Shown here: one piece after another, positions 3,161 to 17,833 of the stretch
Numbering within the stretch: position 1 is the stretch's first letter
Layout of the letters: each line of letters opens with the position of its first letter
Source of the DNA: a virus
Strand: one strand, 5' to 3'
Length of the DNA: 22,040 bases
Virus record (IMG/VR): IMGVR_UViG_3300009550_000071
Coordinates: 1 to 22,040 of that record
Translations under genes and position numbers: made by a program
Notes under the pieces: model-generated
The model's input: the letters and a program-made list of their open reading frames with translations, nothing else
Told to the model about the DNA's origin: nothing
The model's database searches: none

Positions 3161-5590
3161 CTACGTTTTCATAATATAGCAAAGCGCATAGTATGGTGGG
3201 AGGTTTGCATTATTACCAGATGATCCCTCCGATCCAGTGTTACTACTGCTGGCACCACTAGTAGTGGTAGTGCTAGCACCACCAGTGCTACTTATACTAG
3301 AACCACCAGAAGTACCACTTACACTGTGCGAGTGAGAACCAGTGGAATTACCAATATTCTGACTACCAGAGGGACTTGAGTTATTAGAATGAGCCCAACC
3401 ACTAAATCCGTCACTTTCTGAATCATAATATGGCGTAGAATAAGCACTGGTATGTTGGTGAGTACCACTACTACTAGTATCGTAACTACCAGCACCGTGA
3501 GTGTGACTCATACTGTGTGTATGACTCAAACTGTGAGTGTGAGTCATACTGTGAGTGTGAGAGACAACTATGGCATTAGCACTACCACCTTGAGCACCTA
3601 CACTATAAGTATCTCCAGCACCAATAACAAACCTATTTCTTAAATCAGGTGTGCTGTTAGAACCATTACATAAAGTCCAACCACTTGGAATTGCATTTGC
3701 TGCACCAGACCAAATAATAATCCCTCCAGTAGGAACTGATGAACCAGCTCCTCCAGTTGAACCTTGAACACCCTGGTTTCCTTGAGGACCGGTAGGACCA
3801 GCAGCACCATCATCACCTTGAGGACCTGTTGAACCACCAGGTCCACCAGAACCTGTAGCACCCTGAACACCCTGATGTCCTTGATTGCCTTGAGGACCTG
3901 GTACGCTTGAACCTGATCCAGTGGCACCCTGAACACCTTGATTACCTTGTGGTCCAGTGGGACCTGTTGAACCACCAGGTCCACCAGAACCTGTAGCACC
4001 CTGAACACCCTGATGTCCTTGAGCACCTTGAGGACCTTCTGAACCACCGGGACCACCAGAACCTGTAGCACCTTGGACACCCTGATGTCCTTGATTGCCT
4101 TGAGGACCTGGTACGCTTGAACCTGATCCAGTGGCACCCTGAACACCTTGATTACCTTGAGGACCTGCAGGACCATTAGCACCTTGAACACCTTGGTTTC
4201 CTTGAGGACCTGCAGGACCAGTAGCGCCTTGAACACCTTGATGTCCTTGAGCACCTTGAACACCTTGATTACCTTGTGGTCCAGTAGGTCCAGCAGGACC
4301 GTCATCACCTTGAGGACCTGTGGCACCATCATCACCTTGAGGACCAGCAGGACCAGCAGGACCATTAGCTCCTTGAACACCTTGGTTACCTTGAGGACCT
4401 GTGGGACCTGTTGGTCCAGTAGCACCCTGAACACCTTGATGTCCTTGAGCACCTTGAACACCTTGATTACCTTGAGGACCTGCAGGACCAGCAGCACCTT
4501 GAACACCCTGATGCCCTTGAGCACCTTGAGGTCCTTCTACATTTGAATCTGCACCTGTAGCACCTTGAACACCTTGATTACCTTGTGGTCCGGTGGCACC
4601 TGTAGCACCCTGGACACCTTGGGGACCAGCAGGACCAGCAGGACCATTAGCACCCTGAACACCTTGGTTTCCTTGTGGTCCTGCTGAACCGGTAGCACCT
4701 TGAACACCTTGATGCCCTTGATGCCCTTGAGCACCTTGAGGACCCGCAGGGATGTTAGTTAAATTAGAACCATCACCATAATAAAAGTTTGCTGTTACAA
4801 TACCAACAGAGAGAACTTTATCATTTGAAGAATTAGCAGCAGCAAGTGGATTAGTGGTTCCTATGCCAACATTCGTTAGAGTGTGAATACCAGCATTAGT
4901 GCTTATCCATCTACTACTACTACTAATTTCATCTAAAAGACCACCATTTGCATCAATCCACTGAGCACCATCACCATCGTTATAGTATATTTTGAGGCGA
5001 CCTGTATCACTTTCCCACCATAAATCACCAGAGTTAGGACTGGGTGGGGCATCATCAGATATAGTTACAGTTTCACTACCACCAGAAGTTTCTACCCACT
5101 GAGCACTATCAGCATCTACATAGTAAACATAAAGTTCACCGATATCAGTGTCCCACCATAAATCACCATTTACTGGTGCAGGAGATGTTGGTGGATTTTC
5201 GGATACCTTTACTCTAGCACTAGCAGCATCAATTCTGATGGTGGAAATAGTACCACTAGCGGTTGCAGTGACACCAGCACCAACAAAGTTAAGTTTTGAT
5301 ATACTATTAGCAACACCAATAAGAGTGCCTTCATCAAAAACACTGATACCACCTGGTTGTAATCCAGGTTGTTGTTGCCAATACCTATCATAAGTATCAC
5401 CATTTGGAATGGTAATTAGTTGAAAATATTGGTCGGATATTGGAACACTTTTTTCACCAGGAAATCCTAGATTTGGTTCTACTTCACCCGGAGACACATA
5501 AAGATGTCGGTCAGTATGTAGACCGGCATTATTGACAATCTTGACTCTACCACTAAGATATCTGTGCGTCGATTTTCTTGCGTCTGCCAT
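3161..5590 (-). CDS. Collagen-like tail fibre with tail-collar receptor-binding tip
   Basis: This is an 809-aa fibre protein. Residues 1-280 form the attachment half and contain a duplicated GDLWW module (about 141-167 and 188-213, each ending AQW) and a GIHTLTNVGIGTTNP segment. Residues about 283-616 are collagen-like Gly-X-Y repeats with short interruptions such as GSGSSVPG. Residues about 622-669 match the phage tail-collar domain (GGIIIWSG, IPSGWTLCNG, TPDLRNRFVIGAG). The tip carries HTH at 678-680, 684-686, 690-692 and 696-698, then HQH at 711-713 and HSH at 753-755, and ends PPYYALCYIMKT. HxH motifs near such tips bind metal in T4 gp37 and gp12. The role is most likely host recognition by a trimeric fibre. 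It starts 6 nt after the 322-aa gene ends. It shares near-identical collagen cassettes with the gene at the left edge. Confidence 0.88.
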   Translation of the reverse strand: MADARKSTHRYLSGRVKIVNNAGLHTDRHLYVSPGEVEPNLGFPGEKSVPISDQYFQLITIPNGDTYDRYWQQQPGLQPGGISVFDEGTLIGVANSISKLNFVGAGVTATASGTISTIRIDAASARVKVSENPPTSPAPVNGDLWWDTDIGELYVYYVDADSAQWVETSGGSETVTISDDAPPSPNSGDLWWESDTGRLKIYYNDGDGAQWIDANGGLLDEISSSSRWISTNAGIHTLTNVGIGTTNPLAAANSSNDKVLSVGIVTANFYYGDGSNLTNIPAGPQGAQGHQGHQGVQGATGSAGPQGNQGVQGANGPAGPAGPQGVQGATGATGPQGNQGVQGATGADSNVEGPQGAQGHQGVQGAAGPAGPQGNQGVQGAQGHQGVQGATGPTGPTGPQGNQGVQGANGPAGPAGPQGDDGATGPQGDDGPAGPTGPQGNQGVQGAQGHQGVQGATGPAGPQGNQGVQGANGPAGPQGNQGVQGATGSGSSVPGPQGNQGHQGVQGATGSGGPGGSEGPQGAQGHQGVQGATGSGGPGGSTGPTGPQGNQGVQGATGSGSSVPGPQGNQGHQGVQGATGSGGPGGSTGPQGDDGAAGPTGPQGNQGVQGSTGGAGSSVPTGGIIIWSGAANAIPSGWTLCNGSNSTPDLRNRFVIGAGDTYSVGAQGGSANAIVVSHTHSMTHTHSLSHTHSMSHTHGAGSYDTSSSGTHQHTSAYSTPYYDSESDGFSGWAHSNNSSPSGSQNIGNSTGSHSHSVSGTSGGSSISSTGGASTTTTSGASSSNTGSEGSSGNNANLPPYYALCYIMKT
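3497..3559 (-). repeat. 18-bp tandem repeat encoding the HTH ladder
   Basis: About 3.5 imperfect copies of an 18-bp unit (minus strand CACACTCACAGTATGAGT and variants) encode four HTH motifs spaced exactly six residues apart, residues 678-698 of the fibre. Several copies differ by synonymous or conservative changes, suggesting selection on the protein pattern. Confidence 0.8.
3867..4159 (-). repeat. 83-bp perfect direct repeat inside the collagen region
   Basis: Bases 3867-3949 are identical to 4077-4159 (offset 210 bp, 70 codons). The unit encodes collagen triplets plus the interruption GSGSSVPG. The perfect match over 83 bp, against diverged flanks, points to recent duplication or gene conversion. 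Confidence 0.8.
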
Positions 5591-12583: not shown

Positions 12584-13935
12584 TAGATCTTGGGCATCCC
12601 GTGCGTATCTCTGATTAACTTCATGGATGTAAGAGATTGGTCAATGTTAAAATGATGACATAACTCTTTAATCATATATAGTCCACTTAACTCAGGGTCA
12701 TTTTCTTTACTTTCAGATGATGTTTTAGGAAAGTTACACTTAATTACATCACCAACTTCCAGATTTGTATTGCAAGGGACCTGAATATCTAAAGTCTGCA
12801 TAAACAATAAGTTATATCTCATAATAGACTGCCGTTGGTTCTCAAAACCACTTGCATTTTTGGCAGGTAAATTAGAACCATTTTGAGCAACATAAGCATC
12901 CTTCTCTAAAGTTCCAACATCAGCAACCATTGAAACAATTCTACTAGGTAAATTAGTGAGTTCTGCTGCTCCTAAAATTTTTGGAACTTGAAAATCTTCA
13001 CCAAGTTTAACCCTAGGTTCTTTTTCTTGAATACTGAATTTACCTTGCTCTACACTAGAATAGTTTCCCGTTGAAGGGTCAAACTCTGCAAAGAAAGAAG
13101 AATACATCCCTCTTTTTAACTTTGATATTAAATCATGATTGAGAGAAATAGTATATGTCAATATCATGTCATCTGAATACTCAAGAGGAGTTGCCCCTAC
13201 AGATTTAAAAGTATATTCAGACTTTGGTGAATTTTTACCTTCCTCTATCAAAGTTGAGACAGATTTGAATTTAAAACCCGATTTTGTTTGATAGAAGAAA
13301 TATCCTGCCTCCTTATTAGCATCAACTGCTTTTGATGCCAACCATACTAATATATTAAATGGTTTTTTCATGTTACCCATGAAACCATACTGGTTAGATG
13401 TTGCGTCAGAATCAACTAACTCTGAAGAAAGTTTTTCCTTCACTATTTTTTCAACAGAATCTTTGATTGAAAGATTTCTTGGAAACTTTTGATTTACTCT
13501 TGCAAATTCATTAGTTAGAGCTTCTCTTGATGTTAAATCAAGAACAATAATTTCTCTTTGACCCTCTTTCATTACAGATGATATTTTGGAAACATAAAAG
13601 TAAGTGGTTCCAGTGCTAAAATCAAGTGCAGGATTACCACCATCAGTTCCAGGTGGGTTACCAAAAGGTTGAATTTTTATCGCAATCCTCTCACCACCTC
13701 TGAGAGGCAGACCACTATAAAGCGATTCCTTTTTGCCATCTGAACTTTTATCAGATACGACAACATTACCACCATCAACTAAAACAAGTTTTGCAGTTAT
13801 AGTTGGAGAAAATAAATCCTCATAGTAGTTAAAACTAATTACACCCAATCTGAGATCTACCGTCTTCGCTGGGTTGAACGAAGATTCAATTGTAAATACG
13901 CTATAGTTTGAAGTATCCTGAGCTTTTCCTGACAT
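12583..13935 (-). CDS. 27: gp27-like baseplate hub protein
   Basis: This is a 450-aa protein with no membrane segments. The N-terminal half has the strand pattern of phage hub proteins (DLRLGVISFNYYEDLFSPT, then ITAKLVLVDGG, LPLRGGERIAIKI, YFYVSKI, then REIIVLDLTSREAL), and the C-terminal part has LDIQVPCNTNLEVGDVIKC, then LSGLYMIKELCHHF, as in the last barrel of gp27/gpD/VgrG-type proteins. Length is close to T4 gp27 (about 390 aa). The position directly before the gp5-like OB-fold gene, joined by TAATG, supports it: gp27 forms the trimeric ring that holds gp5. It also starts in a TAATG overlap with the M23-containing gene. The assignment relies on pattern and neighbourhood, since sequence identity to T4 gp27 is not obvious by eye. 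Confidence 0.65.
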   Translation of the reverse strand: MSGKAQDTSNYSVFTIESSFNPAKTVDLRLGVISFNYYEDLFSPTITAKLVLVDGGNVVVSDKSSDGKKESLYSGLPLRGGERIAIKIQPFGNPPGTDGGNPALDFSTGTTYFYVSKISSVMKEGQREIIVLDLTSREALTNEFARVNQKFPRNLSIKDSVEKIVKEKLSSELVDSDATSNQYGFMGNMKKPFNILVWLASKAVDANKEAGYFFYQTKSGFKFKSVSTLIEEGKNSPKSEYTFKSVGATPLEYSDDMILTYTISLNHDLISKLKRGMYSSFFAEFDPSTGNYSSVEQGKFSIQEKEPRVKLGEDFQVPKILGAAELTNLPSRIVSMVADVGTLEKDAYVAQNGSNLPAKNASGFENQRQSIMRYNLLFMQTLDIQVPCNTNLEVGDVIKCNFPKTSSESKENDPELSGLYMIKELCHHFNIDQSLTSMKLIRDTHGMPKI

Positions 13936-15608
13936 TAACCCAATTTAGTAAGTATTTGATGATCTAACAGTTTTGCTGCTGCTCCACTACTATTTACACT
14001 AGCAGTATTGAAGGGTATCATGCTTTGAGATTTATCAGTATTTTGTGGTGGTTCTGGTGGTTTTGACTGACCACCATTGATTATAATGGTGTTAGTCGCT
14101 ATTTGTTTTGTTGGTGGTTGAGAAATTGTTGTATTTCTAGTCTGGTTTTGTTTTTTATTATTAAACAAATTAAAAATATTATTTAAAGGATTTGGATTTT
14201 GATTTGAGTTAGGACTTGTTTGAGGATTAACCACAGGTTTTGTTGTGGTATTAGTAGTTTTATTGTTAGTTTTGTTTTTAGATTCTTTACCAATTCTCAA
14301 ATATTTGATGTAACCACTAGGATCAATACCAGATTGCCCACCACCACCTTTGGGTCTGACTTCAAATTGTAAATGAATTCCAGTGCTTGTACCAGTACTA
14401 CCTATTTCACCAATAATTTGTCCTGTATAACTCTCACCCTGTCTAACATCAAAATTTGCCAGGTGAGCAAACACAAAATCTAAATTTCCAGAATTGATAA
14501 TAACTGTTTTTCCATATCCACTTAAAGTAGTGACAAGAGATACAGTTCCTGTCAATCCAAAAGCAACATGGAAACCTCTTTCATGCGAGGTGGCAATGTC
14601 AATACCCCTATGCATACTCGGTCCACCATGAACAGGGTGAGTTCTGTATCCATAATTACTGGACATACCAACTTTATTTGTTATATCGTCACCAGCATAA
14701 ACATTTTTTGCCTGGAGATTTGCAAGTGGAACAATATTAGTTAATTGTCCACTTGTCTGTTGTTGAGCACTAGGTTGTTGGGGACTAGGTTGTTGTGTTG
14801 GTTGTTGAGCACTAGGTTGTTGTGTTGGTTGTTGAGCACTAGGTTGTTGTGTTGGTCGTGTTCCCTGCTGTGCTTGACCTCCACCAGATCCATCTGGATT
14901 ACCGCCAGGTCCATAATATTCAGGTTTTTCTTCTTCAGATTCTTCTCCAGGTAATTTGAAATCTGAAATGTCAAATCCCATTTTAGCAAGCAAAGATTCA
15001 GCGTCTCCAGATAACATAATAATGCCTTGCTGAACAGAATTATTCATTCTTGAAAATGCAGAATTCATATCTTTTAATGATATGTCAATCGCACTTTTAA
15101 AATTTTGAAAATCCAAATTTGTGATACTATTAAATATCTCACCTATACCAGTTCCAAAAGCAGTAAATAATTGAACCGTTCCACCAAAAAAATCATCAAG
15201 AATACTTTTATATTTTCGAAGTCTTTTAGTTAAACCCTCAGCAAATTTGATAATTCTAGGTAGATTGACAACTGCCCATCCAATTAAAATATTGCCAAGG
15301 AAGTCCATTATTCTACCAAAAAACCCTTTGGTGCTCTTCATGGCACCTTGACCAGTTCTTCTTATAGCACCCGTTGATGATGATGCCTCAACAAGGTCCT
15401 CTCTTTCCTTTCTCCTAACAGACTCTCTTCTCATCTGGAAAAATTTGGCGCTATCAGCAATACCTCTTCTTTTTTTAATATTAGTTTCTTTAAGAGATTT
15501 TGATATACTCTGAGCAGACTTCCTAGTTCCAAGCATAGAACTTTGAAGTCTAGTTAGTGACTTCTGTATTCCGGATAAATTTTTAGCAGAATTAGTTGCA
15601 AATGACAT
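13935..15608 (-). CDS. Baseplate hub/tape-measure-related protein with M23 peptidase domain
   Basis: This is a 557-aa protein. Residues 1-75 are basic and helical, probably coiled coil; about 88-145 is a hydrophobic helical part (FFGRIMDFLGNILIGWAVV). A Gln/Pro-rich linker (about 245-285) encoded by 27-bp repeats follows. The M23 (lysostaphin/LytM-type) domain spans about 305-440: NYGYRTHPVHGG, H333-RGI-D337, FAH382L, then H412-L-Q414. M23 enzymes cut peptide cross-links in peptidoglycan, so this may open the wall during tail penetration. Against the usual HxH, the second His (a zinc ligand) is Gln. The C-terminus has a Thr/Asn-rich linker and a TNTIIINGG motif also found in the 443-aa neighbour. 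It begins in a TGATG overlap with that neighbour. Placement after gp26/gp51 suggests hub or tape-measure function. Confidence 0.75.
   Translation of the reverse strand: MSFATNSAKNLSGIQKSLTRLQSSMLGTRKSAQSISKSLKETNIKKRRGIADSAKFFQMRRESVRRKEREDLVEASSSTGAIRRTGQGAMKSTKGFFGRIMDFLGNILIGWAVVNLPRIIKFAEGLTKRLRKYKSILDDFFGGTVQLFTAFGTGIGEIFNSITNLDFQNFKSAIDISLKDMNSAFSRMNNSVQQGIIMLSGDAESLLAKMGFDISDFKLPGEESEEEKPEYYGPGGNPDGSGGGQAQQGTRPTQQPSAQQPTQQPSAQQPTQQPSPQQPSAQQQTSGQLTNIVPLANLQAKNVYAGDDITNKVGMSSNYGYRTHPVHGGPSMHRGIDIATSHERGFHVAFGLTGTVSLVTTLSGYGKTVIINSGNLDFVFAHLANFDVRQGESYTGQIIGEIGSTGTSTGIHLQFEVRPKGGGGQSGIDPSGYIKYLRIGKESKNKTNNKTTNTTTKPVVNPQTSPNSNQNPNPLNNIFNLFNNKKQNQTRNTTISQPPTKQIATNTIIINGGQSKPPEPPQNTDKSQSMIPFNTASVNSSGAAAKLLDHQILTKLG
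14755..14863 (-). repeat. 27-bp tandem repeat encoding TQQPSAQQP
   Basis: Two perfect copies of a 27-bp unit (14801-14827 and 14828-14854) are flanked by a variant copy (14774-14800) and partial ends. They encode a Gln/Pro-rich linker of nine-residue repeats before the M23 domain. Copy number is likely to vary by slippage without changing the reading frame. Confidence 0.85.
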
Positions 15609-16939
15609 CAGATACCCATACCTCCGATGTTATATTGAATAAGAGAATGTAACATATATGGATTATCCCTATTACCACTCGGAACACTAAGTAAGCTAGT
15701 CCCAGTGCCAGACCCACCAGAACTAGGAACTTCAGTGGTTCCACCATCATTTCCAGAATTATTAATTATAACCGTATTTGCCCTATCTTGATCTGATTTT
15801 AAATCTGCTTCGCTCTTTGTTAATCTTTCAAATATTGCTCTCGCCCCATCACCGAGGTCTGGGATTCCAAGATCATCTAAACTTTGACTTAGACCAGGTA
15901 TGCTCAAACCAGATCTTTCATACAAATCTGTTGCATATGAACTACCAAGCAAAGCACCAACCACTCTTGCTCCTGGTATTGGTATAAGACCTGTTGCGAG
16001 TGCGCCTGCTGCTCCACCTAAACCACCAACTATACTTCTATCAAAGTCCTCTCCAAATAATGCATTCAATATTGCAATATTTCTCGCGCCTCTGGCAAGG
16101 TTACCTAAAGGTCCCCTTAATCCACCAGTATTAGTATTAGATGTACGTCCTCCTCTATTGGATGAGTTTCCAGGTGCAGGTGATGCTGGTACAGGTGGTG
16201 CTGGTAATCGTGGAACATTTCTAATTCTACCAGAAAGTCTTCTTAATACTCCTCCAACAATTCCAAGGACAAGATTAATTGGTCTAAGTAATAAATTTCT
16301 AAAAGCAAAACCAGTTAATCTTGCAGTAAGAGAGGTTAAAGTTCTTAATGCTAATACAAATCCACCATTTATTGCAACAAATATTGTGCCTACAATCGCT
16401 AAGTCTTTTTTGACTTTATCAAATAAATTACCAAGACTTAATTCTCCTTCAGAAGATAAATCTCCAATAACTCTTAAAAGACGTGAACCAAGAGTTCCGA
16501 GGAGTAATATCTGGAAAAATCTTCCCAGATTAAATAAAGATTTTTGAGCAGCACCACCAACTTTTTGTAATGGTTTAGCAAGTGCAGATTGTATTTTTTT
16601 CTCTAATATCCCTTCCTTTCCTTCTCTTAATCTCTGTTCTGATAATATTCTTTGTTGTTTATTTTCTTCTGCCTGCTTTGCTTGTTCAAGAACACTTGAT
16701 TGTTGGATTTGAGTTGATATTGTTCTAAGGGAGTTACTTAAAACAGCAATCTGATTTGTAATTCCACCAATACTCGTATTGACCGTTTGAAGGGCAAGTT
16801 GATTTCTTCTTAAAGCTAATGCAGTCTGAGGATCTGGACCAGTAGCAACAGGTTGTTCTGAACGCCCCAATATAGCATTAGCAGGAATTACACTCCTCCT
16901 AACTTGCATTCCTAATATTGGAGACGATAACTCAGCCAT
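15608..16939 (-). CDS. Hub/tape-measure-like protein, paralogue of the M23 protein
   Basis: This is a 443-aa protein. Residues about 35-110 form an amphipathic, Gln/Leu-rich coiled coil. A hydrophobic helical section follows (GRFFQILLLGTLGSRLL near 140 and AIVGTIFVAINGGFVLAL near 185). Then come a Pro/Gly-rich linker, a glycine-rich hydrophobic segment (SIVGGLGGAAGALATGLIP, about 305-330) and a C-terminal NTVIINNSG motif before a short tail. The overall plan, coiled coil then hydrophobic helices then TIIIN-type motif, is shared with the 557-aa gene, so the two look like diverged paralogues. Position just after gp26/gp51 is where a tape measure (T4 gp29 type) would be. It overlaps gp51 by 8 nt. 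Other possibilities are a hub-associated DNA-ejection protein; no enzyme motif is seen. Confidence 0.55.
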   Translation of the reverse strand: MAELSSPILGMQVRRSVIPANAILGRSEQPVATGPDPQTALALRRNQLALQTVNTSIGGITNQIAVLSNSLRTISTQIQQSSVLEQAKQAEENKQQRILSEQRLREGKEGILEKKIQSALAKPLQKVGGAAQKSLFNLGRFFQILLLGTLGSRLLRVIGDLSSEGELSLGNLFDKVKKDLAIVGTIFVAINGGFVLALRTLTSLTARLTGFAFRNLLLRPINLVLGIVGGVLRRLSGRIRNVPRLPAPPVPASPAPGNSSNRGGRTSNTNTGGLRGPLGNLARGARNIAILNALFGEDFDRSIVGGLGGAAGALATGLIPIPGARVVGALLGSSYATDLYERSGLSIPGLSQSLDDLGIPDLGDGARAIFERLTKSEADLKSDQDRANTVIINNSGNDGGTTEVPSSGGSGTGTSLLSVPSGNRDNPYMLHSLIQYNIGGMGI

Positions 16940-17120
16940 TTATTCCAGATTGTTGAGCTTTGAGATTTTCTTCTTCAATATATTGATGTAAGAAAGTGAG
17001 ATAAACTTCTCTTTCCCACGGTATCATGTTTTCAATCTCTGTTAATGAGTATTTATGATGTTGAATCAAAGCAAAATTTGTTTTAAAGTATGACTCAAGG
17101 TCTTCATGAGCCATACTCAC
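16932..17120 (-). CDS. 51: gp51-like baseplate hub assembly protein (GTG start or frameshift product)
   Basis: A small protein (62 aa from the GTG at 17120; ATG at 17114 is an alternative) with the sequence YSLTEIENMIPWEREVYLTF followed by an acidic helix QYIEEEN. It is helical and soluble, and resembles the small gp51-type hub assembly factors of cyanophages, encoded between gp26 and the tape-measure-like genes. The GTG overlaps the gp26 stop (GTGA). No ribosome binding site lies at a proper distance; the nearest, GAGGG, is 18 nt away. Instead a slippery heptamer and a stem-loop at the junction would put this frame onto gp26 by a -1 shift, giving a predicted 300-aa fusion. It may therefore be made mainly as the tail of that fusion, as with the G/GT tail-assembly chaperones of lambda-like phages. 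Confidence 0.65.
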   Translation of the reverse strand: MSMAHEDLESYFKTNFALIQHHKYSLTEIENMIPWEREVYLTFLHQYIEEENLKAQQSGING

Positions 17121-17143
17121 GCGAAAAAAGAGTTTAGTCCCTC
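17087..17143 (-). promoter_or_regulatory. Predicted -1 programmed ribosomal frameshift signal at gp26/gp51
   Basis: On the minus strand, in order: SD-like GAGGG (17143-17139); 9 nt; slippery heptamer T TTT TTC (17129-17123) in register with the gp26 codons TCT TTT TTC; 5-nt spacer GCGTG containing part of the stop; and a stem of 11 bp with one G-U pair (17117-17107 with 17097-17087) around a 9-nt loop. After a -1 slip the next codons are CGC GTG AGT ATG, in frame with gp51. The layout is that of the E. coli dnaX signal: SD-like stimulator, heptamer, short spacer, hairpin. All elements are read directly; function is inferred. Confidence 0.7.
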
Positions 17144-17833
17144 TAAAACAATTTTATTATCAACTCCAGTATTTGGATTTTTCACCTTGACTGTATGAGA
17201 CAACTTAGGCATAGTTTCGAAGAACCTTTCAATCTCCTTGAACTGCTTTGAACTCAATTGCTCTAGAAATTCTGTCATTTCTTTTCTGGTGCAATCAGAT
17301 GCGGACCAGGATTCCTCCTCATTAAACACCTGCTCAACACACGAAGCAATCAAATCAAAAGTTCCCTCAACAGTAATTTCTTCTCCACTAAAATTATTTT
17401 TGATAAACTCACTCATAGATGGATATTTCATTCTGAGAGTAAGGTCATCATCAAGGACAATATCTTTGTTGTGATCTTTACCAGTATGAACTTTAATATC
17501 ATCAAGATTGATTACAGTAGGAACTTTAGTCTCACCATCATCAGGACAGGTTACAAGAACTTCAACATCTTCCCCAACAGACTTACCTCTAATGTTGAGA
17601 AAAACATATTCAATATCAAAAGTTGCAAAATCATCAACTTTCACACCACGAGTAATAATGCAGTTTTTGATTACATCTTTAACTGCTGTGGCGATTTGAG
17701 TTTCATCCTCACTTTCCATGGCAAGAATAAGAACCTTCTCTTCACGAACTAGGAAGGGTCTGTACTTAATTTTCTTTCCAGACGAAGGCAATACCAACTC
17801 ATATGTTGGAGTAGAAATTTTTGGTAAAGGCAT
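17117..17833 (-). CDS. 26: gp26-like baseplate hub assembly protein
   Basis: This is a 238-aa protein matching the T4 gp26 / T4_baseplate family as I know it: TYELVLPSSGKKIKYRPF, then LVREEKVLILAMESED, a conserved NCII segment, FDIEYVFLNIRGKSVGE, then a Cys-containing beta segment (VTCPDDGE) and LTLRMKYPSMSEFI. T4 gp26 is about 208 aa and is needed to build the hub; it is not thought to do catalysis. It comes directly before gp51 and the tape-measure-like genes, the position that tail-assembly chaperones hold in many tailed phages. Its last sense codons TCT TTT TTC GCG form a slippery site, so part of the product may continue into gp51. Upstream, AATAAATA overlaps the gp54-like stop codon and probably drives this operon. 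The ribosome binding site is weak. Confidence 0.8.
   Translation of the reverse strand: MPLPKISTPTYELVLPSSGKKIKYRPFLVREEKVLILAMESEDETQIATAVKDVIKNCIITRGVKVDDFATFDIEYVFLNIRGKSVGEDVEVLVTCPDDGETKVPTVINLDDIKVHTGKDHNKDIVLDDDLTLRMKYPSMSEFIKNNFSGEEITVEGTFDLIASCVEQVFNEEESWSASDCTRKEMTEFLEQLSSKQFKEIERFFETMPKLSHTVKVKNPNTGVDNKIVLEGLNSFFA

Follow-up and report, generated by a model that had tools for sequence, protein, structure and literature searches.

A conserved slippery heptamer at the gp26/gp51 junction of T4-like phages very probably directs a -1 frameshift producing two forms of a tail assembly chaperone

Introduction

The stretch of DNA analysed here, hereafter called the window, is a 22,040-base IMG/VR virus fragment of a marine T4-like phage. 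On its minus strand, a homologue of T4 gp26 is followed by a homologue of gp51, both recognized by profile search, and the frame of the latter overlaps the end of the former. This arrangement raises the question of how gp51 is made, namely whether it is a separate protein or the C-terminal end of a longer gp26 product. The reading that we favour, with a probability of roughly 0.93, is that the tail assembly chaperone (TAC) of T4-like phages comes in two forms by way of a programmed -1 ribosomal frameshift.

Results

Architecture of the junction

The features of the window on which the argument is built are the following:

17117-17833, minus strand: gene 26 homologue, putative short chaperone form, 238 aa (PF12322, 8.6e-76; phrog_150, 2.5e-81)
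17139-17143, minus strand: GAGGG, candidate SD-like stimulator 9 nt 5' of the heptamer (anti-SD pairing peak and GAG codon bias in relatives)
17123-17129, minus strand: slippery heptamer T TTT TTC (T TTT TTC/T/A in 281/287 related loci)
17117-17119, minus strand: gp26 stop codon TGA, 3 nt past the heptamer (sequence)
17087-17117, minus strand: downstream hairpin of 11 bp with a 9-nt loop, after a 5-nt spacer (z -4.32; pairing and compensatory changes in 61 relatives)
17112-17114, minus strand: gp51-frame ATG within the stem, a possible extra start in the window's clade (invariant in 61 close relatives; missing from many other lineages)
16932-17123, minus strand: gp51 segment predicted to follow a -1 slip (RVSMAHEDLESY..., 63 codons plus stop; phrog_634, 7.1e-27; -1 frame open past the junction in relatives)

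The PF12322 score of gp26 (254.9 bits for a curated cut-off of 24.5) places it in the gp26 family. Its gene ends with TCT TTT TTC GCG TGA, so that the heptamer is in X XXY YYZ phase, and the whole junction reads GAGGG-9 nt-TTTTTTC-GCG-TGA-GTATGGCTCATGAAGACCTTGAGTCATACT. The first-pass annotation had described this cassette, and its components were all recovered: the codon-aligned heptamer (17129-17123), GAGGG exactly 9 nt upstream (17143-17139), the GCGTG spacer (17122-17118) and a hairpin with stems at 17117-17107 and 17097-17087, including one G-U pair. The latter folds at -15.7 kcal/mol, and none of 200 shuffled sequences did as well. The gp51 frame is exactly -1 relative to gp26 and reads CGC GTG AGT ATG GCT up to a stop at 16934-16932, as had also been proposed. 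A slip would therefore yield a 300-aa gp26-gp51 fusion, continuing after SFF with RVSMAHEDLESY... The window itself thus combines the elements of a programmed -1 frameshift, with an in-phase X XXY YYZ heptamer, an overlapping open -1 frame, an upstream SD-like element and a downstream structure.

Relatives of the locus

We gathered gp26 loci from IMG/VR (six queries) and from phage records, 287 of which have a readable gp26 end. The heptamer, as T TTT TTC, T TTT TTT or T TTT TTA, is present in the correct phase in 281 of them, mostly 3 nt before the stop. Of the six others, four are lineages in which a TAATG overlap is found, one is a record whose run has five T, and one is an odd locus. Groups with the heptamer include Kyanoviridae (with a Methylophilales phage among them), Schizotequatrovirus, Emmerichvirinae, Pootjesviridae, Menderavirus and Chakrabartyvirus; phiM9 (Pootjesviridae) carries the run as T TTT TTG. 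Protein identity among the related loci is about 30-95%, and they represent several virus groups; we give no single probability for the conservation of the heptamer because the loci are related.

The five-T record is that of the Stenotrophomonas phage IME-SM1 (L088:2240-2270), where the slip site is one T short, so that the annotated gp26 continues in another frame. The full run of six T is found in BUCT608, and in alignments the remaining Menderavirus records are one base longer than IME-SM1 at this position. Its five-T run is either a sequencing slip or a real loss.

The 281 loci were sorted into 118 clusters by shared gp26 4-mers. Since these clusters were drawn from heptamer-carrying loci, the presence of the heptamer in all of them is not evidence in itself; only the last base of the run was left free by the filter.

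Coding in the -1 frame and the start of gp51

In 84 of 215 unique contexts, the -1 frame contains no ATG, GTG or TTG between the upstream stop and 45 nt past the heptamer start, and 48 of the 118 clusters are start-less near the junction by the same three codons. The gp51 N-terminal peptide is nevertheless conserved from the first codons in start-less contexts (e.g., RIALSHDSLENYYKTNF), with RIxLxHxxLxxYYxTNF as the conserved -1-frame peptide. Over its first 16 codons, the -1 frame of these 48 clusters is free of stops; its mean identity is 53%, compared with 31-32% for the other two frames, nearly all of which are closed by stops, and variability is maximal at the third positions of the -1 frame. 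Near-cognate starts are formally possible at gp51, yet they would not account for the heptamer.

Existing annotations differ in their treatment of this region. Among the 60 phage records listed, 14 (about a quarter) have no annotated feature at gp51, and in P-HM2 it is annotated as a stub of about 30 aa; gene callers probably missed gp51 because no start codon was found. No joined gp26-gp51 CDS was annotated among the phage records examined.

The main alternative is termination at TGA followed by reinitiation at the overlapping GTG or at the nearby ATG, giving a separate gp51. The window does have both codons in the gp51 frame. The first-pass annotation had stated that gp51 lacks an ATG at the overlap, which is incorrect, as an in-frame ATG lies at 17114-17112, 6 nt after the GTG; its other statement, that gp51 lacks a usable ribosome binding site, holds, no SD being found at normal spacing. 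We rejected GAGGG as a ribosome binding site for gp51, as it is located 24 nt from the ATG, too far to serve as its SD. This ATG (alignment A1 columns 16-18) is invariant in 61 close relatives, but because it lies inside the stem, structure alone may explain its invariance. The four heptamer-less relatives with a TAATG overlap in the same frame also fit termination-reinitiation. Against it, 48 of the 118 clusters have none of the three start codons there, and it leaves the retention of T TTT TTN unexplained. As the sole route to gp51, termination-reinitiation is thus very unlikely. It may occur in addition to the slip in the window's clade, where the invariant ATG makes a free gp51 possible.

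Conservation of the heptamer beyond coding needs

Returning to the frameshift, we compared the spelling of the run with that of similar codons elsewhere. Of the 131 further Phe-Phe pairs encoded by these genes, only 8 take the form T TTT TTN, to be set against 281 of 287 loci at the junction, indicating that the heptamer is conserved beyond what coding requires. The last base of the heptamer is C in 86, A in 18 and T in 14 of the 118 clusters. A final A turns Phe into Leu, so that these 18 clusters retain the slippery run despite the change of residue. The idea that the T run is a by-product of a conserved Ser/Asp-Phe-Phe end and AT-rich codon use, with which the conserved GLxxFF C-terminus and the preference of the genes for TTT (72%) agree, is hardly tenable, given that the mean chance per cluster of obtaining the run from the peptide and the gene's own codon use is 0.42, yet nearly all loci have it, that the second Phe is TTC in 86/100 cases versus 28% elsewhere, and that the run is retained when Phe is replaced by Leu (TTA). 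Judging from these sequence comparisons, the cassette is under strong selection and is in all likelihood functional.

Stimulatory elements

Across the 118 clusters, predicted pairing with the 16S tail is strongest in windows that start 19-14 nt 5' of the heptamer, where up to 78% of clusters reach anti-SD pairing of -5 kcal/mol or lower, versus 3.6% in the background. The Glu codon at the SD-like site is GAG in 62 of 90 cases, compared with 29% elsewhere in the genes.

In 60% of clusters, the stability of the 40 nt following the heptamer ranks within the top 5% of windows. A hairpin is seen in about 60-70% of clusters and is weak or absent in about 30-40%, with some clades having no visible hairpin downstream of the heptamer. 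We therefore rejected a universal downstream hairpin, as in several clusters (L162, L224 and L225 among others) this region is no more stably folded than other windows of the genes concerned, and likewise a single shared hairpin shape, as the geometry varies between clades. In the window's clade (61 relatives), the stem is paired in 95.2% of cells, versus 29-45% when it is slid, and 17 double changes were identified, most of them a U-A to G-C replacement found in 15 sequences. In a second clade, three pairs have changed in a compensatory manner, an excess over the shuffled control that is only modest.

The cross-genome comparison of the junction that the first-pass annotation had suggested hence agrees with a frameshift: the heptamer is kept in phase, the SD-like element is conserved, the hairpins are common and covarying, and the -1 frame is coding even where it is start-less. 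The colinearity of the predicted fusion with T4 gp51, described below, lends it further support.

Relationship with T4 gp26 and gp51

As in the window, T4 gp26 belongs to the PF12322/phrog_150 family, and the predicted fusion shares its domain plan with T4 gp51. T4 gp51 (249 aa) matches the gp26 family over positions 3-248 and the gp51 family at its end, and T4 gp26 corresponds to the short form by family matching. The predicted fusion covers positions 5-278 of the 282 of phrog_150 and, in BLAST, is colinear with T4 gp51 across the junction. Unlike the overlapping pair of the window, T4 genes 26 and 51 are divergent and full-length, and hence no slip can join them. Gene 26 of T4 ends with GAG TTC TTT GAG, without the T6 run of the window. 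Given the presence of both gp26-like and gp51 domains in its gp51, T4 has a separate paralogue for each of the two forms, short and long. Its gene arrangement recurs in Lazarusvirus and Tulanevirus, and an Acinetobacter record labels both genes 'tape measure protein assembly chaperone'.

The four lineages devoid of the heptamer, Vibrio K364, Vibrio D531, Pseudomonas Cygsa01 and Vibrio GR28A/Campanilevirus, instead enter the gp51 frame through a TAATG stop/start overlap (L089:2190-2270, L091:2205-2290, L092:2046-2130 and L095:2180-2260). As judged from their sequences, the slip appears to have been replaced in them by a stop/start overlap that would give a free gp51.

Identity of the chaperone and neighbouring genes

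As a prediction from sequence, the two products would be a short and a long form sharing their N-terminal domain, as is characteristic of TACs, and the T4 paralogues show both. The AlphaFold model of gp26 has a pLDDT of 88, and among PDB entries the one that matches it with the highest probability is 2ob9, the tail assembly chaperone of HK97 (probability 0.72, TMt 0.51); as this match is weak, with an E value of 1.2, we take it as suggestive. No meaningful sequence relatives were found among solved structures, an NCBIfam search returned nothing, and there was no near-identical DNA among phage records. T4 gp51, by comparison, is needed but is not found in the particle (PMC3004832).

The next gene (443 aa, 15608-16939), which we looked at for a tape-measure identity, gave no family match in the profile search. 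Two genes downstream of gp51, a 557-aa protein (13935-15608, minus strand) harbours an M23 peptidase domain (4.9e-15). Elsewhere in the window, an 809-aa protein (3161-5590, minus strand), probably a tail fibre, contains long collagen-like GPQG/GVQG repeats, which create long open frames in other frames.

Discussion

We propose that most ribosomes would stop at TGA and release the 238-aa short form, gp26, and that a minority would slip back by one base on T TTT TTC, aided by GAGGG, which would pair with 16S rRNA behind the ribosome, and by the hairpin in front of it. The slipped ribosomes would read through gp51 and make the 300-aa long form. By analogy with gpG and gpGT of lambda, the short form might coat the tape-measure protein, and the C-terminal gp51 domain of the long form might recruit or dock another tail component.

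In kind, this mechanism is that of the known G/GT-type -1 frameshift of tail chaperones, reportedly described for lambda by Xu, Hendrix and Duda in 2004. Lambda shares with the window a two-form product, a -1 slip shortly ahead of the short gene's stop codon, a location in the tail operon and a small C-terminal extension encoded downstream. The lambda slip site is a G-rich heptamer, whereas the family of the window has T TTT TTH, accompanied by an SD element like that of dnaX and in many cases by a hairpin. The dnaX cassette itself similarly has an SD-like element about 10 nt upstream, a heptamer and a downstream hairpin, but its heptamer and purpose differ from those of the window, and in the gp26/gp51 family the hairpin is not universal.

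The mechanism is probably also already known for the gp26/gp51 pair, contrary to the first-pass annotation, which was aware of no description of it. Vladimirov, Gautam and Davidson reportedly identified the TAC genes of T4-like phages in 2022 (Virology 566:9); going by the title and by citing papers, these genes are of the same kind as those of the window. In citing papers, poly-T slippery signals are presented as known in TAC-N genes of T4-like phages (PMC12846349, 2025), and some T4-like phages are stated to use a fusion gene in place of the slip (PMC10885494). In our literature search, neither the SD-like element nor the covarying hairpins nor the TAATG replacement lineages were found described; the 2022 paper may contain some of these.

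It is conceivable, if still somewhat doubtful, that T4-type myophages switched their route to the long chaperone at least twice, from the widespread slip to a TAATG overlap or to a second full-length gene as in T4, and the window's clade may make both the fusion and free gp51. Should the TAATG lineages be able to do without the fusion, the rule that tail chaperones come in two forms would not be absolute.

For several hundred genomes of cyanophages and related phages, these results represent an annotation correction. Their gp51 is missing, shortened or called a separate 'assembly catalyst', and the protein is most likely produced as the C-terminal part of a fusion with gp26. More broadly, this family makes it possible to compare frameshifting, stop/start coupling and separate full-length genes as routes to the same protein pair.
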